From Telopea speciosissima (taxonomy: Eukaryota; Streptophyta; Magnoliopsida; Proteales; Proteaceae), in NCBI RefSeq assembly GCF_018873765.1, contig NC_057925.1, positions 20,161,568-20,225,567 on the forward strand: DNA of 64,000 nt. Reading direction: 5' to 3'. Made by a program: the position numbers and the translations under genes. Below, piece after piece: positions 2,997 through 64,000 of this stretch; positions within the stretch are counted from its first letter, which is position 1, and the number at the start of each line of letters is the position of its first letter. Under the pieces are notes generated by a model. That model was not told the origin of the DNA, made no database searches, and saw nothing but the letters and a program-made list of their open reading frames with translations.

Positions 2997-3788
2997 GTAT
3001 TCCCCCCTTTATCAGATCGAACAATTTTGATCCGAGTGTCAAACTGAGTAAGAATCATCTGATAAAAGGTTTTAAATGCATCACAAACATCACTTTTATG
3101 CTTCATAAGAACAGTCTAAGTAGCACAAGAAAAATCATCAACAAAGGACACAAAGTAACAATAGCCAAATAAAGAGGTAGTAGGGGAAGGTCCCCAAACA
3201 TCAGTGTGCACAATATGAAAAGGAGCAGTAGTTCTATTACCATGATATGGATAAGAGGAACAACAATGTTTGGCAAACATACATGGTTCACATTGAAAAA
3301 CATGAGAAGAAGCAACAGAAGAAAATAAGTGAGGCAATTGTTTCCTCATTACAACAAAAGATGGATGGCCAAGACGATGATGCCATAACATAACAGACTC
3401 AACAGAACTACTATCATTATGTCCACACACATAGGACTGAGCTGTGGGCAAAAGAGGCTAAAAAAGGTAAAGGCCTTGCTCCTCACGTCCACTACCAATA
3501 ATCCTCTTCGTCACCAAATCCTGAAAAAGACAATGAGAAGGAAAAAAGGTGATAACAGTTTAAAGATTTTGTCAAATGACTCACAGAGAGAAGATTAAGG
3601 GTAAGGTTAGGAACATGAAGGACAGATGTAAGAGAAATAGATGAGGTAACAGGGATACTGCCCTTACCAGAGATGGAGGAAAGGGAGCCATCGGCCACCC
3701 GAACCTTATCCTTACCGGAGCAAATGGTATAGGAATCATAATAATGGGACGTACCAGTCATGTGGTCGGTGGTACCAGAGTCAATGAC
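2997..3788 (-). pseudogene. copia-1 protease and integrase N-terminal part
   Basis: The protease has the VIDSGTTDHMTG active-site block directly after a TAG stop at 3789-3791, where copia proteins usually have Trp. Then come NLLSVS and the pre-integrase zinc site (LWHHRLGHPS and CEPCMFAK), then HTDVWGPSP with the first integrase Asp and VSFVDDFS. A second TAG at 3116-3118 again sits where TWTV is expected. Protease, zinc site and the Asp block are separate short open stretches. Confidence 0.85.
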
Positions 3789-4921
3789 CTAAGACTGGGC
3801 TGTAGTAGAAGCTGAGGTGGAAACCTGCAAAGCGGAGGATGAAGAAGAGCTAGCCACTGTGGGTGTAGGAGATGTGCTCAGCTGTGACATGACCTTGCGG
3901 AACACTGCCTCAGCCAAAGTAGAGTCATCCTCTGTAGCATCTGTTTCCGTCATAACAGAGTGGGCACCTCGAGCTCCCCCCGACGACCACCACGAGCCCC
4001 ACTGCGTGTACCAGGAGGACGGCCATGAAGAGTCCAACATCTATCCTTGGTGTGCCCAGATCTCCCACAATGATCACATTTAAATCTGTCTCTGCCACCT
4101 CCACTAGCACCACCTGTCTCCACTGCTCTGTCCTCCCAATAAGTAGGCCCCTGGCCTCTACCATCACCACGGGTGTCCCGGAAAGAGGAAGAATTGAGAG
4201 CTGATCTCTCAAGGGATGATGCTGGAGTAGGTGTCATAGCAACACGCCGAGTCTCCTCACTTTGTAAATAGCTGCAAACCTCATCAAGAGATGGAAGAGG
4301 AGACCTGCCCAAAATCTGGAGCCTGATGGGTTCATACTCAGGGTTCAGCCGACTAAGAAGAGTGAAGACACACTCCTTTTCAAGAGCACGATACACCTTT
4401 GCCTCATCTGCTGGGTTGGTCAATTGGAGATCCCTGTAATGATCATACTCCTCCAAAAGACCAATATAGGCATTGTAGTACTCAGAAATAGTCTTGTCAC
4501 CCTGCTTCATTGCATTAATTTTTTGGTGAAGTTGATAAACTTTGGCGGAGTCACCCACCCTGTCAAATGTCTGGGCGACACTATCCCAAATAGCCTTGGT
4601 AGTTTCCTTTATCATAAATCTTCTCCCAATCTCGGGCTTCATGGAGAAGATGAGCCATGTCATGACTGTGGAATTTTCGGTCTCCCATTTCTCATAAGTA
4701 GGGGAACCAAGAGCTGGAGCAGTAATGGTGCCTGTAATATACCCAAGCTTCCCTTTGCTCCTAAGGGAAAGCTTCACTGAGTGAGACCAATCCAAATAAT
4801 TGGTGTTGTCTAATTTCACAATGGAGATCTGTGGGTGTGAGTTCTCAAGGACAAACTATGAGGCTACCGGAGTAGGTTGTGATTCCGCCTTGCCAAGTCC
4901 AGAGGCATCAGATTCAGCCAT
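3789..4921 (-). pseudogene. copia-1 gag
   Basis: The likely original start is the ATG complementary to 4919-4921 (MAESDASGLG), but TAG at 4856-4858 interrupts after about 21 codons. The main open part (4819-3950) carries LDNTNYLDWSHSVK, the UBN2-like gag core and one CCHC zinc knuckle, CDHCGRSGHTKDRC. A frame change near 3965 links it to a Ser/Thr-rich tail that runs into the protease. Confidence 0.88.
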
Positions 4922-11777: not shown

Positions 11778-12254
11778 TCAGTGATTAGAAGTAGGCCAAA
11801 CGGTCCTACCTGCCATGGACTGTGCCCTCCTAGCCAAGGTATCTGCCAAAGCATTGGTTATCCTTGGAATAAAACGAAAAGTGACTTCATCAAAATATGA
11901 ACATAGGAACAGGATATCCTCCACAATTGGCCTAACCGATAAGACCGATTGTTTGGAGGCATTTTGCAAATAGGATACCACCTCCTGGTTGTCACCTTCA
12001 ACTTGCAGCTTGTAGAATCCTTCTGATAATGTTTCCAGCAAACTTTCTGTAATAGCAGATGCCTTGTCGATGAGTGTGTCCTTGATATTAAAAGGATCTG
12101 ATAACGCAAACTGAGAGTGGCCCAAATGGTCACGAATGACAAAACCCAATCCTCCCTTACCCCTATCATGGCGAAACGACGCGTCACAATTTAGTTTATA
12201 GTATCCAAGAGGAGGGGAAGACAGGTTAAAGCCGATTGGGCCACTGCAGGCCAA
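11778..12254 (-). pseudogene. LINE-A RNase H domain
   Basis: The 158-codon open stretch has YYKLNCDASFRHDRGKGGLG with the first catalytic Asp, GFVIRDHLGH, LQVEGDNQEVVSYL and FRFIPRITNALADTLARRA. This is the extra RNase H domain at the C-terminus of plant L1-type LINEs. Confidence 0.88.
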
Positions 12255-12382
12255 GAGTGAATTGGCTGTGGTGACAAAGCCAACAGGTACTCATTGCATG
12301 ACTTGTGTGCCTTTTCGATCACCTCTATTGGCGTCCAGTTCTTTCCCCCAAAGAGGAGATCGTTTTGCGAAACCCAAAGGAA

Positions 12383-13312
12383 TCAACATATGAAGGAACA
12401 GAGGGTAATCGTGTCCCTAGCCACCTTCTTCCCTTCATCTTTAAAAATTTCCCAACCTGAAATGCAGCAATGCATAATAGTAATCTCCTTCGAAGGAACT
12501 GTATAAGACAACCTGCTACCAAACCAAACAGAACGTGCGAATGGGCATTGGAAAAATATGTGATCAATAGATTCTGCTGCCCCACCACATCGTTGGCATT
12601 GAGTATCCACCTGCACTTATTGTTGGTGCAAAGCAGCAGCTGTTGCAAGACCTTCAGAACACGCCCTCCACAATAGGGTTTTAATCTTGGGTAGTGTATT
12701 GGAATTCCATATCGATCTCCAAACTTGCTTTGGAACTTCTTCCCATCGATGAGATCTTGCTGAAGACAGATTCACTCTCTCCTTTGCAATCCATTGGTCA
12801 CAGAGTATATGATATGCACTCTTGACCGAGAAGATTCCTTGCTTAGAAGCCCCCCAAACCTGATGATCAATACCTGCAAATAAACTCAACTGGATTTTAT
12901 AGATCGATGCATTGTCACTTGGATGGATAAAACGCTCAATGATGCCCCTCCTCCAACAACGAGTTTGGTGGTCTATAAGATCAGAAACCAAAGTGGGTGG
13001 ATTATCTTCTATTGACTGGTATTGCAGTCTAAAGCCTGGCAGATTGGGAACCCAATCATCAGACCAAATCTTAATCCGTTCACCTGTACCAACACGCCAT
13101 AGCAATACCAATTTCAAGACCTTATGTCCCTCCGTAATGCTTCTCCATCCCCATGACGGATTCGCACCCAACTTTGCCTCCATGAAATCATGCTGAGGGA
13201 AGTAGATTGCTTTAACGAACCGGGCCCAAGGAGAATCCGGTTCACTCCAAAGTCGCCATGCCACCCTTGACAATAATGCTTTGTTGTGTATCGTTGGGTC
13301 CCTAAAACCCAA
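12383..13312 (-). pseudogene. LINE-A reverse transcriptase thumb and zf-RVT region
   Basis: Two open stretches (13312-12617 and 12616-12383) read GFRDPTIHNKALLSRVAWRL, WGWRSITEGHKVL, then CQRCGGAAESIDHIFFQC. The last is the zinc-binding zf-RVT signature of plant LINEs. The two parts lie in different frames. Confidence 0.87.
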
Positions 13313-13761
13313 CCCACCATTTTCCTTAGATTGGCATAGTCAAAGCCAAGAGATCCAATGGATCTTCTTCTTATATGAGCCATCACCCCAATAGAAATCA
13401 GTGGCCAGTTTCCACAGCTTGTTATGGTGTGAATTAGGTAATTTGAAATGAGAACCAGCATAGTTTGCCAGAGAAAAACCAACCGACTTCATCATCACCT
13501 CCTTTCCTAAAAATGATAATAACCATTGTTTTCATCTACTGAAACGCTGATAAGTCTTTTCAGCTACATCACAAAACAGATCGGCCTTGGATATCCCAAA
13601 GAAAGTCAGCAGTCCCAAGTATTTTCTAGATCATTTGCAATAATTCTGGGAAACCACCGTTGCATCTTCATATGGACATTGGGGCTAAAACAAAGACTTG
13701 ATTTGTTGAGGTTGATTGCTTGTCCGCTGGCCTTGCAGTAGATGTCCAAGCATTGCTTCAA

Positions 13762-14885
13762 CTAGTATACCTCATCGACCTTTATCTCCGAGAAAAACAA
13801 GCAATCATCTGCAAAGAGCAAGTGGGTAATTGGGTTTGCCTGATTCTTCACCCGAATCCCTTTAATACGATTTGCTTGTTCTGAATGTGATACAACACCA
13901 CTCAAAGCTTGTGAGCAAAGTATAAATAAAGCAGGAGAGAGTGGATCACCTTGCCATATACCCCTCGTAGGGGTTACCCTTCCTCTTATTGCACCATTAA
14001 TCACAAGCTTGTATGTCACAGAGTGTAAGCAAGCCATTATCATTCTAACCCAATGTGTAGAGAAACCAAATTGCAACAACAACTTGTCAATGAAGTCCCA
14101 CTCCACCCTGTCGTATGCCTTCCTCATATCCAGTTTTAAAGCCAAAAATTTCTGCTTCCCTTTCTTCCTCTGCTGGATATAGTTGAAAAGTTCATGAGCT
14201 ATGAACACATTATCGGAGATGGAACGATCAGGGATGAAAGCTGGTTGTGCTAGAGAGATGAGCGGCTCCAAAACCTCCTTTAATCTATTGGCCATAATTT
14301 TGGTAATGACCTTAATCGCCACTGCACACAGACTGATAGGTCTATACTGATCTACACTTTTAGGATTAGAACATTTAGGCACTAAACATAGGAGAGTTCA
14401 TTACAATTTACTGGAAGGTTAGCAGACGTAAAGAAGTTACTAACAAAATTAAATAAATCCCCATGAGTAAAACCCCAATACTTTTGAAAGAATGCAGGAG
14501 GCAAACCATTTGGGCCCGGTGCTTTCAAAGGTGCCATGGCATAGACCGCTCCCCAAACTTCTTCAATTGTTGGCACAACACATAATCTTTCATTCATAGC
14601 TGTGGTAATCTTCGGCTGAATAGTGTTTAGTACCTGCGTGAGAGCTCTAGGGTCAATCCCCTCCAATTGGAAAATTTGATCATAATAAGCTTGCGTTTTC
14701 TCATAGATCTGGTTCTCCAAATTTGTCCACCCACCAGCTGCCTTCTTCAGGTGAAGAATTCTGTTATGAGTTCTTTGTTGGATTGCTGCAATGTGAAAAA
14801 AAATGGGTGTTTCAGTCACCCTGTTGGAGCCATGTAATTTTTGCCTTCTGGGACTACATCTCCTCTTCTCGAGCCAGTTCTTCAT
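13762..14885 (-). pseudogene. LINE-A reverse transcriptase
   Basis: The part at 14885-14382 carries the APGPNGLPPAFFQKYW fingers motif. A frame change near 14390 leads into 14382-13762 with SVDQYRPISLC, LALKLDMRKAYDRVEW (first catalytic Asp), TRGIWQGDPLSP and HLLFADDCLFF, the FADD catalytic box. Spacing and order match L1-clade reverse transcriptase. Confidence 0.92.
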
Positions 14886-15191
14886 TTAACAAATCAGCAA
14901 GAATACCTTCTTGTTGAGATTCTACAGTTTCCAGGCCACCATGAATTTTTTGTAACTCCTGCTCTAGTGCCTCGATCTTAGTCTGCACATTGCCAAAGAC
15001 CTCTCTATTCCATTGTTGGGAGACGGGTTTACAGTTCTTCATCTTTCGGTAAAGAAGTGGGTTGTCATCTTGAGTACGAGAAATGGACCAAGCTGATTAT
15101 GCTGTTGGCTTACAGCTTGGCTGCCTAAACCACATGGATTCAAAGCGAAAAGGGCGGCGACCAGTGAACTTGCCACCATTTGTATCAATTA

Positions 15192-15860
15192 TCAAAGGAT
15201 TGTGGTCAAAGTGTAAAGAGGCACGGACAAAACAACTGTATTAGGGAAAGTATTTATCCACTTTGAGGTAGATAGGGCTCTATCCAGCTTTACACGAACA
15301 TTAGCTGAGCCATGCCGTTTGTTATTCCAAGTAAATTGTGGTCCATGCGTCTCAAGGTCTAATAATGCACATTTATCCACCATGTCTCTGAATTGAGCAA
15401 TGTCTCTGTAAGGAGATTGAATCCCTCCTTGTTTTTCATGCTGCGATAGGTGGGAATTAAAATCCCCATAACAGATCCACAATGAATTGCGGCCTGCACC
15501 AAGCTGAACAATATTTTCCCAAACCTGTTGTCTCCTCTCTTTGATTGGATCACCATAAATGGAAGTCATAAAAAAAAAAATTCCATTTGATAGACTAACC
15601 TTTGCATCAATAAAATGTCGATTTGAAGAATATCAAGTTGGATATGATTGCGCCAGAACAATGCAAGGCCACCTGATGCACCTTGGGCTGTAACAGAGAA
15701 CGAGTGATCCATACATAATCGTTTATGAACACGTTCAATTCTATCAGTCTGGCATTTAGTTTCCATCACAAAAATAATTTCAGGCTTCTCCCTACGTGAG
15801 AGGTGCAATAGAGATTGAATTGTCAGATTCCCCCTAAACCCCGACAATTCTAGCTAAGTA
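15192..15860 (-). pseudogene. LINE-A AP endonuclease
   Basis: The start NCRGLGGNLTIQSL is readable across a 1-nt frame change and a stop where Trp is usual. Then PEIIFVMETKC with the catalytic Glu, ASGGLALFWRN, and in a second frame SIYGDP, WICYGDFNSHLSQHEKQGG and FTWNNKR. These are the endonuclease/exonuclease/phosphatase motifs of L1-type LINEs. Confidence 0.88.
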
Positions 15861-42230: not shown

Positions 42231-43919
42231 ATGGCTACTCCACAAGAGTTAGACATTCTCACAAAGTCTTTCACAGGTTCGCTCCTCTGTTTCTTTATTT
42301 CAATTTCTCTCCTTCATTCGTTCGTTCTTTCTCTGCTTAATTAATTTCTCTCCTTCATTATTGATTGGGTTTCTCCTTTTGCATAATCATCTATTTTTAA
42401 TCTGTGTTACAGGATTTGGAGTTGATGAGAAGTCAATAACAAGAATATTGGGGAAATGGAAGCCGGAGGAAAGGGAATCCTTTAGGAAGGGATCTCCCAA
42501 CTTCTTTAAACAAGATGATCGTCTCTTTGAAAAATGGAATGCTGACCATATTGCCCTCCTCAAACGTGAATTCTCTCGTTTCAAGGTAATTCATATCTAA
42601 TTTTTTGGATTAATTAGAAAAAAATTTCGACAATTTTTACTATGTAGGGTAATGATTACAAAAGTTTTTTTATTGGATATGAAAATTTTCCTTCCCTTTA
42701 ATTTTCCTTGCAACCAAACGGAGCTATAGAATGTAGTGGCTTGGCTTGATTTTCCTTCTTTTTTCTTTGTTTCAATCAATGTATTAGAATGCAGTGGTTT
42801 TGTGGACAATGCATCCTTGGGAAAGAGATGCTCGTCTGGCAAAGGACTATTTGATTAAGGAGAACCGATCTTGTGATGTTCTGATTGAGATCGCTTGCAC
42901 CAGATCATCGGAAGAGCTTTTGGGGGCGAGGAAGGCCTACCACTCCCTCTTTGATCACTCCCTCGAGGAAGATGTTGCTTCTCATATCCACAGCACCAAC
43001 CGCAATGTGAGTTTGAGTATTCATGATGGGCCCTACACAACCCATTTGTTGATATATATGGGTTCATTTAAGGCCCATCCAAGCCCTACATCTAAGTTGG
43101 GTGTCTTGGGCCTTGAACCTATTCACTGTCTCTAAAATCTATTGGGCCTTAAAAGCCCATTTTACTGCCAAACCTGCTATAACATGGAGTTTTCGTGATG
43201 GGCAGTTTTTTGTAGCACTGGTGAGTGCCTACCGATACGAGGGTTCGAAGGTGAACGATGAGGTTGCAAAATCAGAAGCTAAGATCCTCTGTAACGCCAT
43301 TAAGAATGCCAATACGAAGAACCCGGTCGAGGAGGAGGAAGTAGTAAGGATACTATCAACTAGGAGCAAGGCCCATTTGAAAGCAATCTATAAACACTAC
43401 AAGGAAATGTTTTCCAAGACACTTGATGAGGTAAAACTATTGAAACACCAATACATTAGATTAAGTAGAACCATTTTTCTCTGCAACTGATCAATGTAAC
43501 TAATTAATTTCATCCTTTTGTTAGGATTTGGAGCATGGATCAAGCTTAAAAGAAGCAGTTATGTGCCTTTGCACTCCTCAAGCATATTATAGCAAGGTAA
43601 TTAAGGATGAACTCATCTACTAGAGTTACAACAAAAATACTAAGTTTTTAAGATTGATTTTCAACTTTTTTTTTTTTTCTTTCTCTTTCTCATTCTCATT
43701 CTGGGACAGGTATTGAATGCTTCACTGAAGAGTGGTGCAGATGAGAAAACAAAAGTTGCACTTACTAGAGTGGTTGTAACCAGAGGTGATTCTAACATGA
43801 AAGAGATCAAAGAGGAGTACCATAAGGAACATGGAGTTTCCCTCTCTCAGAAAATCGAAGAGACAACTCATGGGAACTACAAGGACTTCTTGCTTTCCTT
43901 GATTGAAAGGGGAGAGTAA
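42231..43919 (+). CDS. Annexin, D4-like (annexin 2)
   Basis: Six exons with GT-AG borders: 42231-42276, 42413-42585, 42788-43006, 43206-43430, 43525-43596, 43710-43919; 314 residues, as in the plant D4 group. Start MATPQELDILTKSFTGFGVD; repeat 1 loop GFGVDEKSIT; then NAVVLWTMHPWERDARLAKD, LGARKAYHSLFDHSLEEDVA, ALVSAYRYEGSKV, VVRILSTRSKAHLKAIYKHY and TRVVVTRGDSNMKEIKEEYH, ending HGNYKDFLLSLIERGE. It resembles Arabidopsis ANNAT4. The loops deviate from GxGTD (GFGVD, KSGADE), so calcium binding may be weak. No stop or shift was seen. Arabidopsis ANNAT3 and ANNAT4 are also neighbours, so the pair is probably old. Confidence 0.92.
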
Positions 43920-44727
43920 TTTAAAGAAAATAAAAAACCTTAAATTTCTTTTCTTTTGTTTTTTGTTTTGACCTTCCTCCCTTGAACTTCACTTGCAGTC
44001 TTCGAATGTTGTGTTTGTATGAGTATCATGTTTGCAAAAGTAATTGGATTTTAGTACATACACGGTTTCCTTTTTCTTGTTACCTATTTTGTAGGGAAGG
44101 ATGTGTTGGCTAAGAGATAAGTTGTGAGAGAGATAATAGGATGAGCTCTATTGAGGAAGCTCTACCTCTTTCGCATAAGCAAATTAAGGGGGTTAAAACT
44201 CTCATTTCATATTTACTAATAGAGAATAAATAGGGAAACACCTGTAACTACAAAGTAGCTATCTACAACTCCTTCTAACTCCTTCCCATTACCCACAATT
44301 CCCATTTCCATCCAACTACTAATATAGTTACAACTTCTACCACTTAAATAATATAATAACCGCATATTTCTACCTCTTAAATATAATAACTGCATATTTA
44401 AATTCAAAAGTATAACTACCTCCTATATCCTGCTTGTATGATGCACGTGCATGCGTGCATGTAACAGATTCCTACCAATGGTGACCTTTCTATTGAGCCA
44501 ATTTTATTTTATTTTTTTGTGCAAACACCCTTGATCACAGAAGTCCTATTCCTAAAAGAAGGGATGGAGGCTTTAAAAATCTACCATTTCTCATCTTCGA
44601 TATCTTCCAAACAGTAATGCTATGAGTAATGAAGAAGTTGTTCCTTCTGTATAGACCCTGACAATCTACTCCATTTGATGATCCAAGATGAGAAAGTCAA
44701 GCTCATATCAAAAGTGTATCTCGACAT
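43920..44727. other. Downstream region of annexin 2
   Basis: It holds the annexin 2 3' untranslated region, then AT-rich sequence. No feature was recognised. Confidence 0.45.
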
Positions 44728-45018
44728 ATGTTTAGTTTTGGTCCGACCCTGACCAATTGGTCATTTTTGGGCTCTAGGGTTAATTTTGTACTTTCTGGGT
44801 TAGTGCTTCCTTATATAATGTTCTTTTCTCTGGGAGGGTTATAAGAGAGGTTTTGTAACATTTCAAAGATATTGAAATCTGTTCTGCTATTCGGCCGTTG
44901 ACGTAGCTTCTCATCTTGGGGGTGAACCACGTAAATCCTTGGTGTTGTGCGTTGTGTGTCTTCTCTATTTTTCGATTTCTGCTACAAATCGCCACTTCTG
45001 GATATTGTATTCTTAACA
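44728..45018 (+). repeat. copia LTR fragment, same family as the solo LTR at 57973-58437
   Basis: From about TTTTGGTCCGAC to TTCTTAACA it parallels 58150-58437, including TATATAATGTTCTT (a TATA-like box), AGAGAGGTTTTGTAA, and CTTGGGGGTGAACCACGTAA. The first 170 or so bases of the LTR are missing. Confidence 0.8.
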
Positions 45019-45202
45019 ATAACCCCTTGGGGTAAGACCCCCAACAGAGCTAGTCCAAGAAATTTATAAAGCTGAGGGGGATCTTCAAGATAGCCTCAAC
45101 TTTCGCAAGAGAGAACAAACTTCTAAGGTTAGGCAAGTCCCACTATGCATTAGAACCGGTAAACTCAGAGACCCATTGATATGGGCAGTCTGGGGTTCTA
45201 GG

Positions 45203-50710: not shown

Positions 50711-52746
50711 TCAAATTTTTCCTCCAAGCAGAGTGACTAAGAAATCCTTGTAGTCTCCTGATGTATCACCAATAACTGCCTTGTCAAGGTTACTTTTGTA
50801 TGTGTTGAAGTACTCTGCTCTGATCTTCATCATATCTATTTCAGCCCGAGTTACAATGGCTCTAGTTAACGAATCCTCATCTGTTCCCAGTCCAACAATT
50901 GCGTTCCTCACAACCTAACAATAATTGGCAACAGAGAAAAAGGTAATTGTTTTGAGAATGAAGCTTAATCTGAATAAATCATTGAGAAAAATCCATAATT
51001 CATGGAATGTTAAGGAAATTAATTTTCCTATGTTTACCTCAGCAAAGTGTTTCTCAGGGGTATCTATGCACAAAATAGCCAATCTTAAGATGGATTTAAA
51101 ATTGCCAGTGCCACTGCTCTCTATGTCCTGTTAATGAATGGATTTTTAAAACTCAGTCAAAATGTTAGAATGCCACAGTAAATATAGATGGCTTTTGATC
51201 CTGAATGGCACACCTGGTAAATGGAATTCCCATAGTTTTGTTTGTAACACTCAAATGTTGCTTTGAGTTGATACTTATTCCTGGTACTGAGCATGAATAC
51301 CAATTCATCATGATAGAACTCCTTTTCAATAGCATCATGAAGCACAGCAGACTCTGAATGTGCAAGATTTGAATCCACCAATTCTCTGTCATACCTATAG
51401 GAACTCACTAAGCACAAAAGAAGCTGCAAGACGCACATGAACTAACTCAGTTAGACACTTTATAAAGCTGTGCCTCCAGTCAACTGGGTTGGTGAAAATG
51501 GAAACCAACAAGTTAATCCAAACAATGTCTAGAACTTGGCTGGGTCTGGGGGAGTCTTTGTAGTTTTGTGTTTGTGATGAGTTTGGTTTACCTTTCTGAG
51601 AGGCAAGAAGGATACATTGGATGTGATGTCTTCTTCAAGGGAGCAATTAAAGAGGGAACAATATGCTTGCCTCACAGCCATCAAATGTTCTGGAGTTGAT
51701 GCACAGGCAATCTCTATGATCACTTGTAGATGATCAAAACCCTTCTTCAAATGTTCTGGAGTTGATGTACATGCAATCTCTATGATCCCTTGCAGATGAT
51801 CAACACCCTTCTCCTTCTTCCTCAAGCTTTTATTGGCCAATTTTGCATCCCTTTCGGAAGGATCCATCGTCCACATAATCACTGCATTCTGTTTTTATCA
51901 TAAAGTCACTGTTAAATTCAGGCAGACACTTACTAACATGTGGAACTCTGGTTTATAAACAAGTGAAATATATCAAGAGGGACTCCACCAGTAATCTTAA
52001 ATTCTACAGCAACAGAAGAATCCAGACTTGGTCAATTTATATATATATCTTGTTGATTACTTACATATAATTCAATATCTCTAATAGACTATCACATTGA
52101 TGTGGTTAAGGGATCTTGTTTAAATTTATGCATCATGTGTTGATGCCTTAGAAGAACAGTAAATGTAAACCTAAGGCTATGATCCATTAGGTTTATCTGC
52201 AATAATTTGCCTACTGAAACTAACATAAAAAGATGTAAATCCATAAGGGATTTCACTGAAAGTCAAAATTGCAAACAAATGATACATAGTTTCCTCTGTG
52301 TGTGTGTGTTTGTGTTTGTGTTTTCAGAACTGAAAAGTTGATTGTGAGATTTGGAGAAGAACGAACCTTGAAATCAGAAAACACCAAGTAGTCATGAGGA
52401 AGCTTGGATTTGAGAGTATCAGTGAGAGACTTATTGTAAAGATGTTGATATATGTCTCTGATCTTCTTGCGCTGGCTGCCATTTCTGCAACCCAAAATCC
52501 TTATGATCTCCTTCGTATCTGTTCTCCATACTGCATTCATGATTCATGGTGAATTCAACAAACAGTACATGGTCACCCAATTCTCATATTCCATCACCTT
52601 TAACTGAAACATGATTGGAACCCAGAAAAAGAAAAGAAAGAGAGTTTGGAAGGAAAAGAGAAAAAGAAACCTCCAAAAGCTTCTTCGAGATTCTTGCAGT
52701 CTTTGTCTGGACTAGGAACTTTATCTGGTATTCTGATTGTAGCCAT
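50711..52746 (-). CDS. Annexin, D3-like (annexin 3), with a 22-residue internal duplication
   Basis: Six exons on the minus strand: 52746-52671, 52530-52367, 51888-51592, 51423-51214, 51127-51038, 50914-50711; 346 residues. Exon sizes equal those of annexin 1 except exon 3, 297 instead of 231 nt. The extra 66 nt is an in-frame tandem copy: IIEIACTSTPEHL and IIEIACASTPEHL lie 22 residues apart in repeat 2. Otherwise the protein is intact, from MATIRIPDKVPSPDKDCKNL to LVTLLGGKI, and repeat 4 keeps a full GLGTDED loop. It is an inverted paralogue of annexin 1. The duplication should disturb the helices of repeat 2, so function is uncertain. Confidence 0.9.
51682..51813 (-). repeat. 66-bp in-frame tandem duplication in annexin 3 exon 3
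   Basis: CAAATGTTCTGGAGTTGATG begins at 51682 and again at 51748, and the copies differ at a few positions, including ATGCACAGGC versus ATGTACATGC. Confidence 0.9.
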
Positions 52747-53749: not shown

Positions 53750-54670
53750 AATAATGTCTTTCATCCTCATCAAATGCAAAATGAAACCATGCTCTAGGGT
53801 CTTCCTATGACTTGAAAAGAATGTTTATTTTTATTTTTTTTTGGGTAAAATAAAAAAATGTTTATCATGCTGGCAATCAAGTTTGAAGGGCTTTCAATGG
53901 ATAAAATAAGCTCCATGAGGCCTTGATGCCTAATATTTTTTTGGGGAGTTCTCCGTTCTCTTTCTCATTAAATATACTATATTGCTCCCCACCATTGTTT
54001 GGAGTGTAAGATGTCAATATAAACCCACTCCCTAGTTATTGTTGAGTTTTTATTTTATATTGCGTGGGGTTGTAAGGTAAACATGTGAAAATTATATTTG
54101 TTTTTTTGGTATTAACATTGAGAAATTTTATTAAGAACAACTTTATTAAGAACAACGTGAATTACACATGGATGAAGTTGAACATAACTCCTGGATCATA
54201 GATCGGAATTAGTTAGAGACCAAATGTAGTATGAAAATAAAAGGGGGAGTTATGAGATCCATCTGCCAACTTAGAAAAAACTTAAAATATAAATAATCAT
54301 ACTTAATAAACATTAACACTTGTTTCATCCAACATGCATGTTGGAATCTTCTTCATCTACTAACACCATATGTCCAACATTTGATGATAATTAGATTCTG
54401 ATTTTTGCTAAATTAACCCATTACTCCCACTATCTTTGTCACTATATCTAAATGATATAGGAAATTTTATTCTACATTTGGCAGCTTAACTGCTAATTAA
54501 CCTTTAAATGTGCTTCATATCTTAATGTAATTTTATAAAAAATTAAGCACATGACATAATTTATTTTTCATTCCCATTGGATAGCTAGGCACCATATACA
54601 ATGTGAGATGAACCTTTGCCATGCCCTAAGGCCATCTTAATATAAAAACATATGTAAACAGCCTCAATAT
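53750..54670 (+). repeat. Partial copy C of the annexin upstream segment
   Basis: It runs in the same direction as 39150-39780: AAATTAAGCACATG, TTTTTCATTCCCATTG, GCACCATATACAATGTGA and CATCTTAATATAAAA (near 54540-54650) match CACCATATGCAGTGTGAAAT and neighbours near 39655-39715. It is thus also inverted relative to the annexin 1 upstream region. Confidence 0.7.
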
Positions 54671-54833
54671 ACATACCCTCCGAGTATTTTATCAATAGAA
54701 GAAAAAGACTGTAACGGGAAAAATGCATGTTTTATTCTTAAAATTATATCTATATCAATCCACATTGTTGATTGGAAAATTTTATGTTGTTAGAAATCTA
54801 AAATATGCCCATAGTTTGCTTATAGTTGTAGAC

Positions 54834-55890
54834 ATGGAACAAAAACTCGATCGAAACCTGTCGAAATCACCGAATTAACTCGGTTTCTCAAGTTTCCGAG
54901 ATGAGTTGAAAGAGGATTTTATAAAATCCCTGGATTCGATCGGGTTTCGATGGTTTCGACTGGTTTGGACCATATTTCAGTGGTTTTGACACATATGCCC
55001 ATCGAAACTAGGGGAAATTTGACTCGAAATTAGGACAGACAGGTATTTATGCCAGAAACTTCCAGAAACCAGGATAGACACTTAGTTATGTCTTATATCA
55101 TTTAAGTAAACGTTTTGTATTTGTATTTCATTTACGTAATATATTATTCATAAATAAGCAAATAATCCCTTATTTGAATCCAATAAAAATAGTTAAAAAA
55201 ATCAAATTCCAAAAGAAAAAAAATCAACCCCCCAATAATAGAACAAAAATCGGATTTTCGTCGGTAGGTGCAATTTTCAACTTTCTAATGCTTAAGTTCT
55301 TCTCAAATCTAAAAATTTCATAAATCTTAATTTGGTAAAACAGTGTTAAAAACCAAAAGCACAATAAAATATTCATTTGTTTTGATGTCCAAAAAAATAT
55401 TTTCATTCATAGTGATTTTGACAATATTCACGCACACCAAATTAAGATTGATCGGTACATAACTCCTTCAATATAAATAAGATTTAAGCAATCTTGTACT
55501 TATTGGAAAGCTGTCAAAACAAAGCTTTATAACAAATCCAAGATTGTTTAAATCTCGTTTATCTTGAAGGAGTTATGTTTCGGTCAAACCTTATTTGATA
55601 CCATGTCCAAGAATAATATACAGTATCAAACTTGGATAAAAAATACACGTAATATTTTTAGTGTTCTCTATGTAAAACTAATGCATGGATTGAGTTTAAA
55701 ATGTCAAAAATAGGCACCACAATAAGAATCAGGGCAAAAAAATAACTTATGGGCCTCGAAACCAAAGTTCGAGTTAACTTGGAGAAAGTCCCAAGTTTCG
55801 ATCGAGATATGGTCAAAATCGAGATGAACTCATTTTCTGGTTGGTCGAAACCTAATCGAAACCTGAGTTTTAGAGCCTTGGTTACAGGTC
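54834..55890. mobile_element. Candidate TIR element of about 1.05 kb
   Basis: The left end has AAAAACTCGATCGAAACC, and the right end reads GAAACCTGAGTTTTAGAGCC, an imperfect inverted match. CGAAACC/GGTTTCGA words concentrate at both ends. No transposase is encoded. Inside, 55462-55600 holds an imperfect inverted repeat built on CATAACTCCTTCAATATAAA. Confidence 0.45.
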
Positions 55891-56685
55891 ATTTAATTAT
55901 TATTTAGCTAAGCTCATAATTTTCAAGTGATCAGATAAACAACACCTCGAATAGAGTATATAGAAACCAATGTTTTAAGAAGGCTATGTAGAATGCAACT
56001 TCTTTATTTTCTCGTTTCAAAATACATTTTAGACCCATAATCTATTATGTGAGTATATAGAAACCAATGTCTTCACCCCTTCCTATCATCTTAACAAAAA
56101 TATCAATGAACCTCGTGAAAAAATGTGTCACAAACAAATTTAAAATTAAACCCTTTTTTTCTTTGGCTTTATACTCATTGCAATGAAACCAATGTTTTGA
56201 ATGAACTGAACTTTCTCACTAATCCCCCATTAAAGGACTAAGATTTTAGTTTCTTGGATAAGGCACAATTCCGTGTGAAAATCCCCCAAAAAGGAGTTGC
56301 TAATTGGCAAAGGCCAATACCACACAAATCAGAGGTCACGAGTTCAATTCTCTTTTGACTTTCCAATCAAAAAATAAATAAAAAAATTCCTTGAGGATTC
56401 AAGATATGCTCCAAAAGTGAAGACTGCTGCAACTCTATTGTCCAACAACAGACATGCCATGTGAAATTAACAGTGGTGGACGTACTATCGCATATGATTC
56501 CTTTCACACTGCTGGCAGCCCATCAATGAGTTGGGCTCTATACCTACATTTTTTTTTGTTGAAGACCTATTACCTACATTAATTGGGTCATTTTATAGAA
56601 GATGTCCTCCCCTGACAGATTCCCTGACAGATTCCAAGTTAGACAGAGGAGAATACGGACAGAGCAGAGGGTCACCTTAATTCTT
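55891..56685. other. Stretch without recognisable features
   Basis: AT-rich sequence with no coding frame or repeat boundary seen. Confidence 0.4.
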
Positions 56686-56952
56686 GGTGAAAATATATGG
56701 ATACCCCCTCAACTATGGCATGTTTTCTTTTACATCTTTTCATTTTCAAAATTTTCTGAGTGAGTCCACCGAATTAATTCACTATTACCTAACTAACAGA
56801 AAATATAAAGTTACTAAATTACCCTTTATACCTTAATAGATCAAAACAAAAAAAAGACCAAATTACTCTAAGTCCTCCAACCCTTTCAAGTACCTCATTT
56901 CCCAAATCTCTTATGAACCACTGCTATCTCCTCGAACCCCCACCCTTCATCT
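56686..56952 (+). repeat. Left terminal inverted repeat of the Pack-type candidate
   Basis: It ends exactly where kinase-like sequence begins (minus-strand INRLK at 56953). Confidence 0.6.
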
Positions 56953-57008
56953 CTTGAGGCGATTAATGGCGGTGAGCTCCCAGAGGAAATCATCGATCCC
57001 TTGCATGT

Positions 57009-57725
57009 TATTAGAACCAAACATACCCAATGAGATCATAGTTGTGCAGGAGAGGGAGCAGCTGTGATCGCCAAAACAAATAGTTGTTGTTTGAAAGCTT
57101 GATGGCGATCAAATTATTGAAAGAGGGATAAGCTCCAGCAGGGAGGGGGGAGGAACCATTAACAGTGGAGGGAAGAATCGATCCTAAGGACCCCTCAATG
57201 TCCATCAGAGAAGGCATAGTGTGAACTACATTTTGAATTGAATTCTTGATGTCCAACCTCAATGTCGCTAAAGTACCCTTGAGTTTGAGGGGGCGTATTA
57301 GAACCAATCCCTCCATCAACGGAGATGATTTATCTCAAGGCATTCAATCCTCAAAGAATTAGCAAGACAATCTCCCAATCAAAGGAGATGATTTATCTCA
57401 AAGGATTCCATCCACAAAGGACCAGCAAGACTTACCTTCAATAGAAAAGGTTACCGTTGGAAGGAGAATAAGTGATAAGAATATTGGATTACTTATGACA
57501 CCTCTTGCTTCCTTAAATGTTCTCATGACACCTCCTACTTCCTTTAATGGAGGAACCGTTTCTCAAAAACATTGTATATTGTCCATAAATAAGGACCTAA
57601 TGCTATGGAAGAGATAATAAAGAGTATTACTATTGCCATGGATGTAGGTTTACCTTAAACTGAACCACGTTACATTATTGTGTCCTTCCTCTCTCTATCT
57701 CTATCTCTTATTTATTTTCTTATCA
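57009..57725 (+). mobile_element. Deleted copia element in the kinase fragment, with 5-bp target duplication
   Basis: CATGT flanks it on both sides (57004-57008 and 57726-57730). TATTAGAACCA occurs at its left end and again at 57296 after the polypurine tract TTGAGTTTGAGGGGGCG, so 57296-57725 is the 3' LTR while the 5' LTR is almost wholly lost. LTR features: TAAATAAGG TATA-like region (57592) and GAACCACGTTACATT (57661). Confidence 0.8.
57011..57295 (-). pseudogene. Inverted copia gag start inside the deleted element
   Basis: The minus strand reads YPSFNNLIAIKLSNNNYLFW and then RSQLLPLLHNYDLIGYV, the N-terminal gag block of plant copia elements. Its direction is opposite to the LTR next to it, so the element was rearranged as well as deleted. 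Confidence 0.7.
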
Positions 57726-57972
57726 CATGTTATCCCTGTAAAACTTCTTGGCTGCAATTTCAGTCTTTTTCCTATGGGAGCAACCCCTTGTAAACCACAC
57801 CGAATCCACCCTGCCCAAGCTTCATCTTCTCATCGAAGTTGTTGGTAGCCTTCTTCAGATCCTTAAAAGCTGAACTTCCTTGGCATTCCTGGCAAGCTCT
57901 TCAGCGACCCCAAAATGGTGGGGTCGTTCACAACCCTCCTCTTCTTCCAATACCGAACCAACATGAAAATAC

Positions 57973-58437
57973 TGTTATTGGTGAAGCTTGATTTTCGCTC
58001 CTGATGTGCCGTTGGGATCTTCGAAGGGCCATTTCGGCCTCGAAATGATCTCGGATTGCTGAAAAATGGCGTACATCCCCCTAGGGGGCTGGTTGTTGTG
58101 TTGGGCTCGTCGAGTATTTCAAAACGGTATATTTTGGGATATACATTATGTTTTGGTCCGACTCTGTTCGGTTTGGCAATTTCTGGGTCCTGGGGTATTC
58201 TTGTACTTCTTCGGGTTAAGGCTTCTTTATATAATGTTCTTATCTCGGAGAGGGCTGTATGAGAGGTTTTGTAATATTTCCAAAAGATAGTGAAATCTGT
58301 TCTATTGCTCGACCGTGGACGTAGCTTCCCATCTTGGGGGTGAACCACGTAAATCTTTGGTGTTGTGTGTTGTGTGCTTTCTTTGTTTCTCGGTTTCTTC
58401 TGCAAATCGTCATTCTGGGCCTTGTTTTCTTAACAAC
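57973..58437 (+). repeat. Solo copia LTR in the kinase transmembrane region
   Basis: It runs from TGTTATTGG to TTCTTAACA (465 bp) with TATA-like TTATATAATG (58230). The flanks AATAC and ACTAC are a 5-bp target duplication with one mismatch. Its last 290 bases match 44728-45018. Confidence 0.82.
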
Positions 58438-58929
58438 TACCAGTCCCCAACAATGCCAAAACCGGCACTCCGACCCCGAATAAGATCTTCAATTCAACCA
58501 CATTAGAATTCTCTTTTTAGGGAACCCCTCCATTGATAGATCTCATTTGAGCATACAGTTTAGCTGCGCCTTCTCACCCATGGATGCCGAGAACCCCATG
58601 TATGAGTACTGACTCACATAATTCTTCTTGATATTTATCTTCTGTTACGAGTATATCTAAGGAAGGAGTACATGGAAGGTTTTCTAAAGTAACTTATTTC
58701 TTATAGAGTGAAGTGGGTTGTTTGGTTTTACGTATTTGTAGAGGTAGTTATCTGTAGGTTTGAATTTAAGAGTCCAAGTTGTTTTGAAGTTGAATTGCTA
58801 GAGTCCAAGTTTGTGAGGAGCACATCTTACTCCTACTTCTCTGTAATTGAACGTTGGAAGACATTGGATACCTAAATTCTACCAATAAGAGAAAAGCTAT
58901 TGATGAGTCATAAATCTCCTAACCAACCA

Positions 58930-59870
58930 GAGGTCACCACGTGGATGTGTTGAGACCAAATCCCAGGTCCGAGCCGAGCCGTCCAAGGTCGGGCCGAACC
59001 ATTCACCCAGAGAGAGGCTGCACTTTATTTCCGGCTTGGTCGAGCACCGAGGCCGAACACTTAGCCCGTCGCGAACTGGGCCGAGCACCTAGTGCGCAGT
59101 GCTACACCAAGTGCAGAGCGAGGAAGTGATCTCCCCAACATGGCCAAGTTCCATGGCCGAGGCTCGGGCCTGCCGAGCCCTGAGCCGAGCCCAGACAGGT
59201 CGGCCCAAGATAGAGCTCCATGACTCGATCAAGCTCCCACATGACCAGGGGAAACTCCCATGCCGCATACGCCGAGGCCAAGGCTGAGCGCTTAGGCCAC
59301 GGCCGCCCAAGGCCGAGTACTGAGGCCACGGCTGCCCGAGACTGAGCACCGAGGCCATGCCCTCCCAAGGCCGAGCACCCCTCCCAAGGCCGAGCACCGA
59401 GGCCACGGCCACCTGAGGCCGAGCCCTCCACAGAAGCTACCATAACGCCCCACCAGGGATCACGGTGCCACGACAGCACAGCCCGAGAATCACAGGATAA
59501 GGATCGAGCCACGATCCCACGAGACTCTGAATCGCTCTCCAATAAGGACTCTTACCTTAGTGAGAGTCCGATCCCAAAAATAACTCTCCACTCCGCCCCG
59601 CGCGGAAGAGCCCTACCAACAAAGGACTCTTACCATGCAAGGACTCCTCCACCTACCTCACCTCATTCTATAAATACTCAGGTATGGAGCTCAAACTCTC
59701 AGATCACTTTTTACTAAGCTGTTACGCTGTTGCACTGGAGACCTGACTTGAGCGTTGGAGAATCCTTGGTCGAAGCCACACCGGCTCTCTTGCGCTCACT
59801 CGGTTTTTTACAGGCTCATCCGTGGGTGAACCGGGCATCGGAGGTTTTCACACACAACAACTATCAGAAG
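58930..59870 (+). mobile_element. GC-rich LTR remnant (probably Ty3/gypsy solo LTR)
   Basis: It is GC-rich sequence of GGCCGAG words, with TATAAATACTCAGG (59671), followed by ACTTGAGCGTTGGAGAATCC and GGTGAACCGGGCATCGGAGG, typical of the R/U5 end of plant gypsy LTRs. No internal domain or second LTR was seen. Limits are approximate and no target duplication was found. Confidence 0.6.
59270..59430 (+). repeat. GC-rich imperfect minisatellite in the LTR remnant
   Basis: Units of the type GCCGAGCACCGAGGCCACGG of about 20-27 bp repeat five or six times. Long open frames on both strands here (such as 59542-59102) come from this composition. Confidence 0.65.
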
Positions 59871-60239
59871 AGGTAGCATTTGAAATCCAATCATCACTTA
59901 CATGTTAAGCCAAGGGCGTGGTTTCCTCAAATCAAACCAACTCTGATTCATCTTGTTATTCCCTGTTAAACCTCCTGTCTCAATCCATTTACGATAGGTA
60001 CGTCCCGGACCAAGAGGAACTCTCCTCAGTACGTACCATCTTCTCACTAAATGTGTTCGTATTCACAATGCATATTAGTTTTGTGGCCAAAATGATGATG
60101 AACGTGTTCATAATGCACTTTGGCGTCTTCTCACTGAGGCCAAAATATCCAATTCCATTGACGAGTTTTTGCTGCTATTGTTATGCGATGAAGATGATGA
60201 TGAAGGCGAAGAAACTTCCTAGAGATTGAATGGTTTGGG
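59871..60239. other. Interior of the Pack-type candidate, unassigned
   Basis: An open frame (59918-60229) shows no recognisable domain. It may be part of captured sequence. Confidence 0.3.
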
Positions 60240-60577
60240 GAGAGAGAGAGAGAGAGAGTTTACCGGAGGAGTAGCAACAGTGACCGGAGAGCAAGGGTGG
60301 AAGGTCGAGGAGACGGCGATCGGAGAGTGGGGGTCAAGGAGATAGCAACGGTGAGGAGATAGTCAAGGTATTTTTGTCTTCCAAACTTTAAATTTGGGCA
60401 ATTTGGTCCTAAAAAAGGCTTGGGTGAGTATTGAGGTTTAAAACTTAACCGCAGTTAGTTTGAAAGACTAATTTACAAGCTTTCAATAGATGAGGGGGTG
60501 TGTTTGAAAGGTTTTAAAGAGGAGGGGGTGTACATGAAAGCAAGCCGTAGTTGAGGGGGTGTCCCTGTATTTTCACC
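60240..60577 (-). repeat. Right terminal inverted repeat of the Pack-type candidate
   Basis: In complement it starts GGTGAAAATACAGGGACACC and includes GACCAAATTGCCC and CGTTGCTATCTCCTTGACCC, paralleling the left arm. It begins after an AG microsatellite (60241-60258). Confidence 0.55.
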
Positions 60578-60593
60578 TATACATTCACCGAAA

Positions 60594-60754
60594 ATTATCT
60601 TCTGTAATTCTCTGCACTGTCTATTTCTCCAAGTCCCTTTAATAGGGGGTGAATTCCACCCGAGCAGTGTGTTTGGGCAAGGGGTAGGGTGGTCATTTCC
60701 GCCCCTTGTGAGAGGAATTTAAAGAAATAGACAAGCAGGGAATTATAGGTGATA
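60594..60754 (+). mobile_element. MITE, family M1 (second copy)
   Basis: The ends are TTATCTTCTGTAATTCTCTG and the complement TTATCACCTATAATTCCCTG. The core has CACCCGAGCAGTGTGTTTGG and GGGTAGGGTGGTCATT. Confidence 0.78.
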
Positions 60755-60956
60755 AAGACCATACACTTATGCTCCATACTTGCTAGTAGAATGTGATGGA
60801 TAATCGAAAACCATTATAGATCTGTTTGATTATCTTGGCTTTGACCCTTATTTTGAATATTGGTTATGACCACTGGTTCAACCTAATATCACATGTGACT
60901 CTAACAACTTTTTTGACGGTCAAAAGACTGCTTAGCGGTTGCACATGCACAGAAAA

Positions 60957-61102
60957 ATATCTCTTGCGATTCCCTGACCGGTACAATTCCTCTAGTGCCT
61001 CTAATAAGAGGGAGGCGGACCCCACCCGGGCAGAGTGTTCGGTCAAGGGTGGAATGGTCATTTTGTCCCCCCTTGTTAGGGAACCACAGGTGATAAAGAT
61101 CC
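60957..61102 (+). mobile_element. MITE, family M1 (third copy)
   Basis: The ends are TATCTCTTGCGATTCCCTGA and the complement TATCACCTGTGGTTCCCTAA. The core has CACCCGGGCAGAGTGTTCGG and GAATGGTCATTTTG. It lies about 200 bp from the second copy in the same direction. Confidence 0.75.
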
Positions 61103-61315
61103 CACATGCACAGAATAATGGTTCAGCTTTATCCCCCCCCCCCCCCCCAAAAAAAAATAAATAAATAAATAAAAACTTCTTCAACTAGTTTCTTCAGGGT
61201 GTCAAATTTGTATCAAACCGAAATTGGAACCAAACTAAATAAGCCAAACTAACCGAATTGATTAAAATTTGCTTCAGCTTGAGTATCGAATTTTAAATAC
61301 AGGGAGAAAAAACGC

Positions 61316-61487
61316 CATCTGGTTGTGTGCAGTGCATAGCCCCTACACCTAGACACAGGGCTATGCAAAATGACCGTCGCATCCCCATGAAAAGTGGAAA
61401 ACCCCGAGGGCACAACAGTCATTTTGTACGACCAGTGTCTGGGTGGGCCACACGCTGCACAACACCAAGTAGCATGCTCTTTCCATT
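61316..61487. mobile_element. MITE-like element, possibly family M2
   Basis: Inverted ends around CTGGTTGTGTGCAG and the complement TTGGTGTTGTGCAG, with GCAAAATGACC inside, as in the two M2 copies. The terminal GCTAACC is changed, so the assignment is tentative. Confidence 0.45.
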
Positions 61488-62305
61488 AATATCTTATAGT
61501 ATAAAAAGACATTATAATACTAATATATTTTAGTATATTATTATTAGATCTTATAAGGGAAATTTTCACTTACCTCCCCTAAGGTATCACATAATTACAA
61601 AAACACTCCTCAGTTTTAGAAAATTCTGCATGCTTCCTTGAGGTTCTTAAAAGTTAACATATGCCCCCATTGTGTTAGTGTAGACAGTAGGACTAACAAT
61701 CTTAAAAACAAGGGCTGAACTGACAAAAATGCCCTTGTAAGAAAAAAAAAAACCTACAACTCATCTTCTCCAAATTGATTGGGGACAATAGATTGGGGAC
61801 AATAAGTTGTAAGTATCCTTGTAGGGAACACCATGAAAGCCTATAAGACACATTAAGCATTGGAAGTGGTAGTGCTCTTACAGCTCTTGGCTTGGGACAA
61901 AGCATATCTGACCCAATTCAGGGCCGGATTGAACAAACCATATGGTTCTGACCTGGTTTCATACGCAATTCTTTGTATTCCACGCAGAGACTGGGGAGTC
62001 GGGTGAAGGCACAAGGGATGTAACCCAGAAGGCACATGAGGAACAAGGAGGGACAGAGAGTGTAGGCGAGCTATTAGGAGCTGTGGGCGAAACCGTAGCT
62101 GAAATTGCACAACTATAGGAGTTTATATGGGTGTTTAGGTTTTTCACTCTCTTGAGCCAAGCATGTCTCTTATTGAAATGGGCCATTGAGTACATAGGAT
62201 TTAGATTTCATAGATTTTGTCTAATTTAGTCATAAATTGTATATAGCCCAACATGCTAAAAACTGTTTTAACTAGCGTTTTGGTATTCAAACCGATTAAG
62301 ACCTG
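61488..62305. other. Stretch without recognisable genes
   Basis: Contains the phrase ACAAAAATGCCCTTGTAAG near 61730, common in plant non-coding repeats, and short open frames on the minus strand with no family resemblance. Confidence 0.4.
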
Positions 62306-62352
62306 ATACCGATTAATAATGGGAACGAAACCATCCCATTATTAATCGGTAT
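62306..62352. repeat. Perfect 19-bp palindrome with a 9-base loop
   Basis: ATACCGATTAATAATGGGA at 62306-62324 and its exact complement at 62334-62352. Confidence 0.85.
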
Positions 62353-62554
62353 TGAGTCCAATGTTTGGAATAAATCAATAAAGTGGAACGTTTCTGGTCT
62401 TGGTTCCAAAAAGGTAGATCCATCTAACCTGAACCGTCCCAATCCTGAACCACAAATTCTATTGGCATTGGAGTGAAGTAAAATCCAATAATAAAATCCA
62501 TATTCTATTTTTTACCCTTCTTATCTATGTGAAAATGACTATATAAATTAAGAC

Positions 62555-62888
62555 CTTTTTTCACTAAAAGGTCATGTATATTAAAAAAAACAAAAAGGAT
62601 AGTACAAACAAACTGGACATCTCCAGAAAAACCAACAAAAACACTGTATATATAATCAAACCCCCACCTACGGCATTGCCATCAGCAGGGGATCAAAAAG
62701 CAACCAAACAAAAACAAAGACAAGAAACAAAACACATTATTGCCATTGGAATCTTGGTCTTCCCTGAGCATCACACTTGAGCTCCTTTACAACCGAAGTT
62801 GGCCAAACATCAATAGGAATCAAAAGTTCAAATTTGGTAGCCGATTTAGTCAGAAAATCAGCTGCCATCGGATTAGTTTCACGAAAGC
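62555..62888 (-). mobile_element. LINE 3' end remnant
   Basis: The minus strand reads CFRETNPMAADFLTKSATKF, then the end of an RNase H-like domain and a short tail, with T runs near 62554. The upstream part is cut by the LTR that begins near 62891. Confidence 0.5.
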
Positions 62889-62890
62889 AA

Positions 62891-64000
62891 TGTGTTGGGG
62901 TAAAATCCACACATCACCTTATATGGTTTTGATGATAACAAATAAGTTAGTTGAACTAACTTGTGTTATATTGTATAGAGACCTTACAACAAATAAAGCA
63001 TCAAGTAAGGGGGAGTTTATACAAACTTGTTGAACCAAGACAAAGTATCAAAGAATGGTGTGAAGAAAAAGACTGAGAAAAGGACTAGGTTCAAAGACCA
63101 TGTTTAAGCATCTCAAATACAAGAGCTTTTAAAAGCATGTGTTCAATGTTTTTGTTTTAAGATGTAGTTAAAGTTTAAGTCCATTTGTAATGCACACACT
63201 CACGCATGCATACATGTAGAGTGACCCTAGGAGGTGTTTTTACATGGACCTAACCCAAGCAAATGGCCCCACACTTGTCCAAACATGGACTTAGCCATTT
63301 TCAGCAAAATCAGCTGATCCGGCATATCGAATCCGAATCCGGCATGCCAAATCCATCTTGACATGTTTGTTTGCAATCTCAGGGTTTGCTCACAAAGAGC
63401 AACCGGAATGTGCTACATCTGATCCGGCATAACGAATTGAGAATCCAGCATGCCGAATCAGATCCAGCATACCAAATTGCAATATGTCTGTTGGGAATTA
63501 GCCGTTTGACAACGGATAGATTCCATGATCTAGCATACCGAATTGGGAAACGGCAAACCGGATTAGGACAGAATTATATCCTAAAATGGCAATGAACCTT
63601 AGATGCTTTGAGCACCTTTGCCTATAAATAGGTAAGCTCATTTGGACTAATGACAATCAATTAAGACTAATCAAAGCATCGCAAAGGCATTCGAATTTGA
63701 ACATTCAAAGTGTTGAAGCATTCATTCATCAAAGCATTCAAGTTCACTTCCCTGTCTACCTAATTATATTCACTTAGCATTGAAGCTTCAAAGTGGAAGT
63801 TAGCTACACATTCACTAAGGTTGAGGTAATCCTTACTTAGTAAAGCTTTCTTTATTATATGTTGTGAGTCCTCTTGCTCGAAATCAAGAGTAGTTAATTG
63901 TGTTGAGTCCTCTTGCTCGTCAATCAAGAGTAGTTGGTGGTGTGAGTTCTTTTGCTCCTAATCAAGAGTTGTACGAGTTCTCTTGCTCATTCTCAAGATT
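62891..64000 (+). mobile_element. LTR of a copia element (SIRE-like), running off the window
   Basis: It begins near TGTGTTGGGGTAAAATCC, followed by TGGTTTTGATGATAACAAAT, a phrase typical of SIRE-type copia LTRs. It contains CCTATAAATAGG (63621-63632) as TATA-like box, a block of CCGGCATACCGAAT-like words (63315-63565) and a terminal 40-bp repeat array. The far end is outside the window. Confidence 0.6.
63862..64000 (+). repeat. Imperfect tandem repeat at the window end (period about 40 bp)
   Basis: Three to four units of GTGAGTCCTCTTGCTC plus ATCAAGAGTAGTT follow each other, with the last cut by the window. Confidence 0.8.

Follow-up and report, generated by a model that had tools for sequence, protein, structure and literature searches.

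A stretch of 64,000 nucleotides from Telopea speciosissima (C10:20161568-20225567, referred to below as the window) contains, at positions 56686 to 60577, a pair of inverted ends that enclose text of a lectin receptor kinase gene. Is this a transposable element that carried off part of a gene, or a local gene that decayed between unrelated repeats? The original prediction for this locus favored the former and offered, as an inference, an origin as a Pack-type Mutator-like element (Pack-MULE). It named as checks an alignment of both ends, a genome search for the same terminal inverted repeats (TIRs) with different cargo, and a hunt for the intact donor gene. These analyses were performed on the window and on the genome (822.9 Mb, 1287 contigs). 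The window element is very probably a non-autonomous Mutator-like Pack-MULE of approximately 1.3 kb, leaving aside later inserts, which carries approximately 0.6 kb from the first exon of a gene for a lectin receptor kinase. Since the donor, the junctions, three loci stemming from one capture, another captured gene, and empty sites were all found, the order of events is directly readable.

Terminal inverted repeats and captured sequence

The first and last 49 bp of the element (56686-56734 and 60529-60577) are inverted with respect to each other and 83.7% identical. Local alignment of the two ends gave a score of 58, compared to a maximum of 31 for 200 shuffles and of 33 for up to 300 random pairs from the window. 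The 30-base end pattern had no further match anywhere in the window with up to three mismatches. Thus, the two ends align, and the inverted ends proposed to lie 3.9 kb apart exceed by far what shuffled sequence provides. Past the first 49 bp, the alignment of the arms, which stops at 56953, had a score matched by one of 500 dinucleotide shuffles. The full extents of the arms were set by comparison with members of their TIR family. Neither plasmid sequences, searched with the left arm, nor Rfam, searched with the window, gave a match.

Comparison of the window with a lectin receptor kinase consensus detected kinase text on the minus strand at 57870-57775 (E value of 1.7e-11) and in a piece ending at 56953 (E value of 0.006). 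A short piece located between the two (57761-57729, E value of 9.9) was accepted on the basis of its position. Elsewhere in the window, including beyond either arm, this consensus revealed no convincing kinase text. In the PDB, the kinase part matched the kinase of a concanavalin A-like lectin receptor (E value of 5.6e-13). The kinase and lectin pieces of the window both scored under the curated cut-offs of Pfam. The lectin end is weak if considered alone, since it had a Pfam E value of 0.0019 and did no better than noise against the consensus; its alignment with the donor gene, at 87% identity, is what establishes it as lectin sequence. The minus-strand fragment extending from the lectin end through the transmembrane helix to the kinase N-lobe was thus correctly anticipated, and a second lectin piece (60136-60242), which is 91.6% identical to the donor and adjoins the right arm, has to be added to it. 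Scans of short reading frames of 58580-58940 and 59866-60286 against Pfam named no family, though 60136-60242 is lectin sequence according to the donor alignment, and a PDB scan of 58440-60290 gave no match. Pfam scans of long frames in 54001-63000 also gave no hit, a weak negative since the minus-strand scan missed the known kinase piece as well.

In total, the cargo consists of two lectin pieces together with transmembrane and N-lobe parts, amounting to approximately 0.6 kb that span approximately 1 kb of donor exon 1 and reach both arms. The origin of the filler present within 60039-60135 was searched for and not found. As a whole, the cargo is not open, with frameshifts and stops located away from the inserts. 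These lesions make a role as a protein unlikely: as judged from its reading frames, the cargo cannot encode a receptor and would at most be transcribed from the TIRs. For annotators, the kinase and lectin pieces of the window element should serve as a warning, as they are not a gene.

The donor gene

The kinase piece had at least eight matches in the genome. The best of these outside the window and a copy located on contig C2 was C5:6986480-6986717 (locus L032). Exon 1 of L032 is open and encodes a signal-peptide-like start, a lectin domain, a transmembrane helix, and the kinase N-lobe; it is followed by a GT..AG intron and by the rest of the kinase. The gene spliced in silico matched Lectin_legB (5.1e-60) and Pkinase (1.1e-48) in Pfam. 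No TIR match was found in the 3.2 kb of L032. The cargo is 90.3% identical to this gene in the window (484 columns) and 89.1% identical in the C2 copy (486 columns), and the donor is 74.0 to 79.8% identical to its four paralogs L034 to L037. The hunt for the donor thus led to a gene on another contig that has open frames and is apparently intact.

Three loci share the left junction

The left junction between TIR and cargo is common to three loci, namely the window, the C2 copy (L009), and a copy at 4.2 Mb on C10 (L010), the two C10 loci being approximately 16 Mb apart. At this junction, TIR text ending in ...CACCCTTCATCTC is followed by 2 bp and by donor text beginning with GAGGCGATTAAT; point changes aside, the same arrangement is present in the C2 copy and in L010. 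The kinase text had been predicted to stop where the left repeat begins, at 56952/56953, which is right to within 3 bp. At the right junction, donor text ending in ...TTGGGGGAG passes directly into the right arm at its (GA)n tract, in the window and in L010 alike. Microhomology is possible at the junctions, involving CCGG on the left and GAG on the right. The cargo has been copied along with the element, and at least three loci carry it. The C2 copy ends at the equivalent of window position 59952 (approximately 2593 in the reverse complement of L009), where different sequence begins.

The window and C2 copies, the only two whose cargoes allow a comparison, both contain a stop codon (TGG to TGA) and an extra T (1-bp frameshift) that are absent from the donor. 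They share five derived base changes, perhaps including the stop. The common stop and frameshift point to a single capture, the cargo being already dead before the copies separated.

The TIR family and its assignment to Mutator

The left end of the element was used as a query (305 bases of the window, including 37 bp of cargo; 40 of 124 candidates were scored). At least 41 matches were obtained, such genome-wide counts being lower bounds. The matches stop at query positions 267 to 272 (window 56952-56957), which correspond to the cargo junction, in 27 of the 41 cases; three reach the end of the query, within the cargo, and 11 stop earlier. Besides the copies on C2 and at C10:4.2 Mb, we read 19 more TIR loci, and 14 of these have a facing arm. 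Both arms of the window element belong to one genome-wide TIR family.

Both ends could be set in seven members of the family. Perfect 9-bp duplications (9/9) are present at the exact ends of L014, L024, and L028, and L012 has a duplication matching at 8/9 positions at its ends. In addition, a MuDR transposase domain, DBD_Tnp_Mut, lies between the arms of L023 (E value of 2.9e-7, above the curated cut-off of Pfam); the catalytic domain was not seen. These duplications and the MuDR domain in family members support the Pack-MULE origin. The same member L023 (element at C8:58811000) displays at 3446-3643 a weak kinase-domain match (E value of 6.3e-4, below the cut-off), perhaps another captured kinase piece.

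The search for the same TIRs with different cargo led to L021 (C8:8583660-8584109). This locus contains an open stretch of 190 residues, the first 150 of which match an open frame of contig C4 (C4:1692373) at 90% identity. Part of the captured stretch recurs at C2:59474804-59474953, beside the TIR match at C2:59474469, where one arm was seen. The cargo of this TIR family thus varies and includes part of another gene. Pfam named no family for the C4 donor frame or for the captured piece in L021; from its motifs, we take the gene to be AINTEGUMENTA-like.

Four nested insertions

The captured sequence is interrupted by four inserts with long terminal repeats (LTRs) or LTR-like ends, listed together with the other features of the element in Table 1. 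Their 5-bp duplications match at 5/5, 4/5, 4/5, and 5/5 positions in the order in which they are described here, and their ends are TG..CA except for the LTR of the first, which is TG..TA. The flanks of the C2 copy run on uninterrupted at 57009-57725, 57973-58435, and 58901-59859, which are thus empty sites in that copy; the same is true of the donor for the first two.

Table 1. Features of the window element, in window coordinates.
Feature	Position	Strand	Remarks
Left terminal inverted repeat	56686-56953	+	268 bp; starts GGTGAAAATA
Captured kinase N-lobe end	56956-57008	-	...QGIDDFLWELTAINR; 2 bp from left arm; includes one CATGT copy
CATGT target duplication, left copy	57004-57008		5 bp
Deleted LTR retroelement insert, 717 bp	57009-57725	-	Not in C2 copy or donor
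CATGT target duplication, right copy	57726-57730		5/5
Captured juxtamembrane and kinase glycine-loop region	57731-57972	-	
Solo LTR, 463 bp	57973-58435	+ (by eye)	AATAC 57968-57972 / ACTAC 58436-58440, 4/5; not in C2 copy or donor
Captured legume-lectin domain end and transmembrane helix	58441-58642	-	
Older LTR-like insert	58643-60038		TG..CA; 432 bp without nested LTR; TCTTC 58638-58642 / 60039-60043, 5/5
Solo LTR, 959 bp, nested in older insert	58901-59859		GCTAT 58896-58900 / ACTAT 59860-59864, 4/5; not in C2 copy
97 bp: right TCTTC copy and filler	60039-60135		Approximately 400 bp of the middle lectin part of the donor missing here
Second captured lectin-domain piece	60136-60242	-	From donor alignment; joined to right arm
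Right terminal inverted repeat	60240-60577	+	338 bp; inner (GA)n tract; three subterminal repeats spaced 30-31 bp

The first insert contains a 430-bp LTR at 57296-57725, the other LTR being reduced to approximately 10 bp, and a minus-strand open stretch within 57011-57277. Pfam named no family for this stretch, which is presumably gag-like, and a coding part was recognized in none of the other inserts. The kinase is in frame across the insert once one copy of the duplication is removed. The join across the 463-bp solo LTR leaves no gap with respect to the donor. A start of this LTR at 58001 was rejected since it provides no 5-bp duplication; the copy with the empty site places the start at 57973. 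The deleted retroelement with its perfect CATGT duplication and the solo LTR with its near-perfect one were thus identified as predicted, including the resumption of the kinase reading after the former. The names copia and gypsy that the prediction gave to the inserts are putative labels. A relative of the 463-bp LTR (approximately 81% identity, one end cut short) occurs at 44705-45019.

The third LTR of the prediction, described as a gypsy LTR lying beside the other two, has to be placed differently, since it is located inside the element and within an older insert, which it splits. This older insert has relatives in L041, L043, and L044 (80.6 to 82.5% of aligned columns); L041 has TG..CA ends and no visible duplication of its own. 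The C2 copy contains part of the older insert, and L010 contains the tail.

Evaluation of alternative explanations

The window copy has no visible 9-bp duplication, as the original prediction had stated; the best 9-mer matches at 6/9 positions within 4 bp of the ends in either direction. This absence would fit the case in which two unrelated or independently inserted miniature inverted-repeat transposable elements (MITEs) flanked a decayed local receptor kinase gene, and the arms are alike at just 83.7% over 49 bp, with weaker similarity further in. However, an identical join between kinase and left arm recurs in three loci, the right junction is common to two, and 14 of the 19 further loci display arms of the family in facing orientation. 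The shared junctions and the confinement of the kinase text between the arms, with no convincing continuation past either end in the window, led us to reject both a pair of independent MITEs and a local decayed gene, the two situations that had been named in advance as fatal to the prediction; the probability left to this explanation is negligible. The missing duplication is also compatible with a capture made by a TIR element of another superfamily (hAT, PIF-Harbinger, or CACTA), and subterminal repeats occur in hAT elements too. These superfamilies generate 8-, 3-, or 2-3-bp duplications, and their TIRs are usually short, whereas the arms of the window element are long (268 to 338 bp), 9-bp duplications flank the exact ends of L014, L024, and L028 (8/9 in L012), and a MuDR domain is found inside L023. 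Another superfamily is for these reasons a very improbable source. Finally, independent capture of the same gene by the window and C2 copies would explain why each cargo resembles the donor about as closely as it resembles its counterpart in the other copy. It is extremely improbable given that the left junction, the stop, the 1-bp insertion, the five derived sites, and the old LTR-like insert are all common to the two copies.

The assignment to a Mutator-like Pack-MULE that was formed by one capture and subsequently multiplied also has to be weighed against a series of unfavorable observations, of which the lack of a duplication in the window copy is one. Among the seven members with both ends set, three (L013, L023, and L025) have no target duplication, and L023 is the one in which the transposase domain lies; the 9-bp duplication of L028 is A-rich. 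Neither of the other two copies displays the pair of ends, because the right arm of the cargo-bearing copy in L010 (C10:4213500-4222500, positions 1649-2684) is cut off at approximately 2445 and that of the C2 copy was not found in approximately 17.8 kb after the left arm. The cargoes of the window and C2 copies are 88.7% identical and so resemble each other no more than they resemble the donor, and the changes private to one sequence (14 in the window, 23 in C2, and 12 in the donor) outnumber the five shared derived ones. The donor lacks the fourth, older insert, but the donor alignment runs only 5 bp past its site and no true empty site is therefore available for it. Since the window copy has no duplication of its own, and since few are kept in tomato, where rows of a published table give 2.4 to 30.8% of the members of MULE TIR families with a target duplication (PMC3310237), membership of the Pack-MULEs is claimed through the TIR family.

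Order of events

According to the favored explanation, capture of exon sequence from the donor would have occurred by template switching while DNA was being repaired or replicated. The stop and frameshift and the old LTR-like insert would have followed, in either order, and the element would then have spread to at least three places, moved by a MuDR-type transposase acting in trans, before three LTRs were inserted into the window copy. The spread must have taken place soon after the capture since the divergence between the window and C2 copies is as great as their divergence from the donor. The older insert predates the spread, as the portions found in the C2 copy and in L010 indicate; the three LTRs are younger than the separation of the copies, as they are absent from the C2 copy. 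The loss of the middle lectin part, with filler left in its place, would be roughly contemporary with the old LTR-like insert. The span of approximately 1 kb could reflect either capture of 1 kb followed by loss of the middle or capture of two pieces. The predicted order, capture followed by LTR insertions, is correct to that extent but incomplete, since the older LTR-like insert and the spread precede the three LTRs. A recent insertion of the element was ruled out by the missing duplication, by the cargo divergence of approximately 10%, and by the four nested inserts.

At the C10:4.2 Mb locus, the truncated arm ends approximately 240 bp upstream of the start codon of a gene that encodes Rx_N and NB-ARC domains, of the nucleotide-binding leucine-rich repeat (NLR) type of immune genes. 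Arms of Mutator elements can carry promoters, according to a statement in PMC3310237, and this arm may contribute to the promoter of the adjoining gene. A broader proposal holds that this TIR family captures genes repeatedly (at least two unrelated ones so far), that its arms drive antisense or small RNAs from the cargo which act on the donor receptor kinase, and that the C10:4.2 Mb copy forms part of the NLR promoter; taken together, we regard these suggestions as an unlikely conjecture.

Other features of the window

Two related short repeats, present as an inverted pair and a direct family, are located just to the right of the element (60583-60765 and 60958-61106) and are probably a MITE family. 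Further away, two pieces of annexin genes lie on opposite strands at 42788-43135 and 51529-51894 (Pfam Annexin, E values of 4e-8 and 5.8e-11). A copia element with long open frames occupies 382-4855 on the minus strand (RVT_2, 1.3e-73 in 888-3008), and a decayed element resembling a long interspersed nuclear element was recognized by eye at 11778-15632 on the minus strand (RVT_1, 4.6e-31 in 13762-14394).

Comparison with known systems

Pack-MULEs are well known, and the route of gene capture is still debated; models based on gap filling and fork stalling are mentioned as worth exploring for plant Pack-MULEs in a passage of PMC8277862. Multicopy Pack-MULEs with a single fragment appear among the examples given in PMC3310237 and PMC8277862. 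The window element is old and multicopy and is a very complete example of a known process. Among the open-licence papers listed, considered at the level of titles and abstract openings, there was no report of the present case among Pack-MULEs with a lectin kinase cargo or in Proteaceae.

As far as the relevant parts of PMC3310237 describe them, plant Pack-MULEs such as tomato PM-ZIBP are non-autonomous, as the window element probably is, and they resemble it in having long Mutator-type TIRs and an ordinary gene fragment, and in existing as several copies within a TIR family displaying 9-bp duplications. The window copy differs from elements of the PM-ZIBP type by its lack of a duplication, its heavy decay, its four nested LTR-type inserts, and a cargo made of separate pieces of a lectin receptor kinase exon. 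The animal Pack-TIRs, in the portions of PMC8277862 devoted to them, are similar in their multicopy state, in a donor located on another contig without TIRs nearby, and in direct or nearly direct junctions. Unlike them, the window element is a plant Mutator-like element, and microhomology at its junctions is no more than a possibility. Finally, six MULE-like elements are mentioned in the corresponding section of PMC2846932 for rice lectin genes, five in introns and one providing exons to a Gal_Lectin gene. Both cases associate MULE-related sequence with genes of lectin families, but in the window it is the lectin receptor kinase sequence that was carried off and multiplied.

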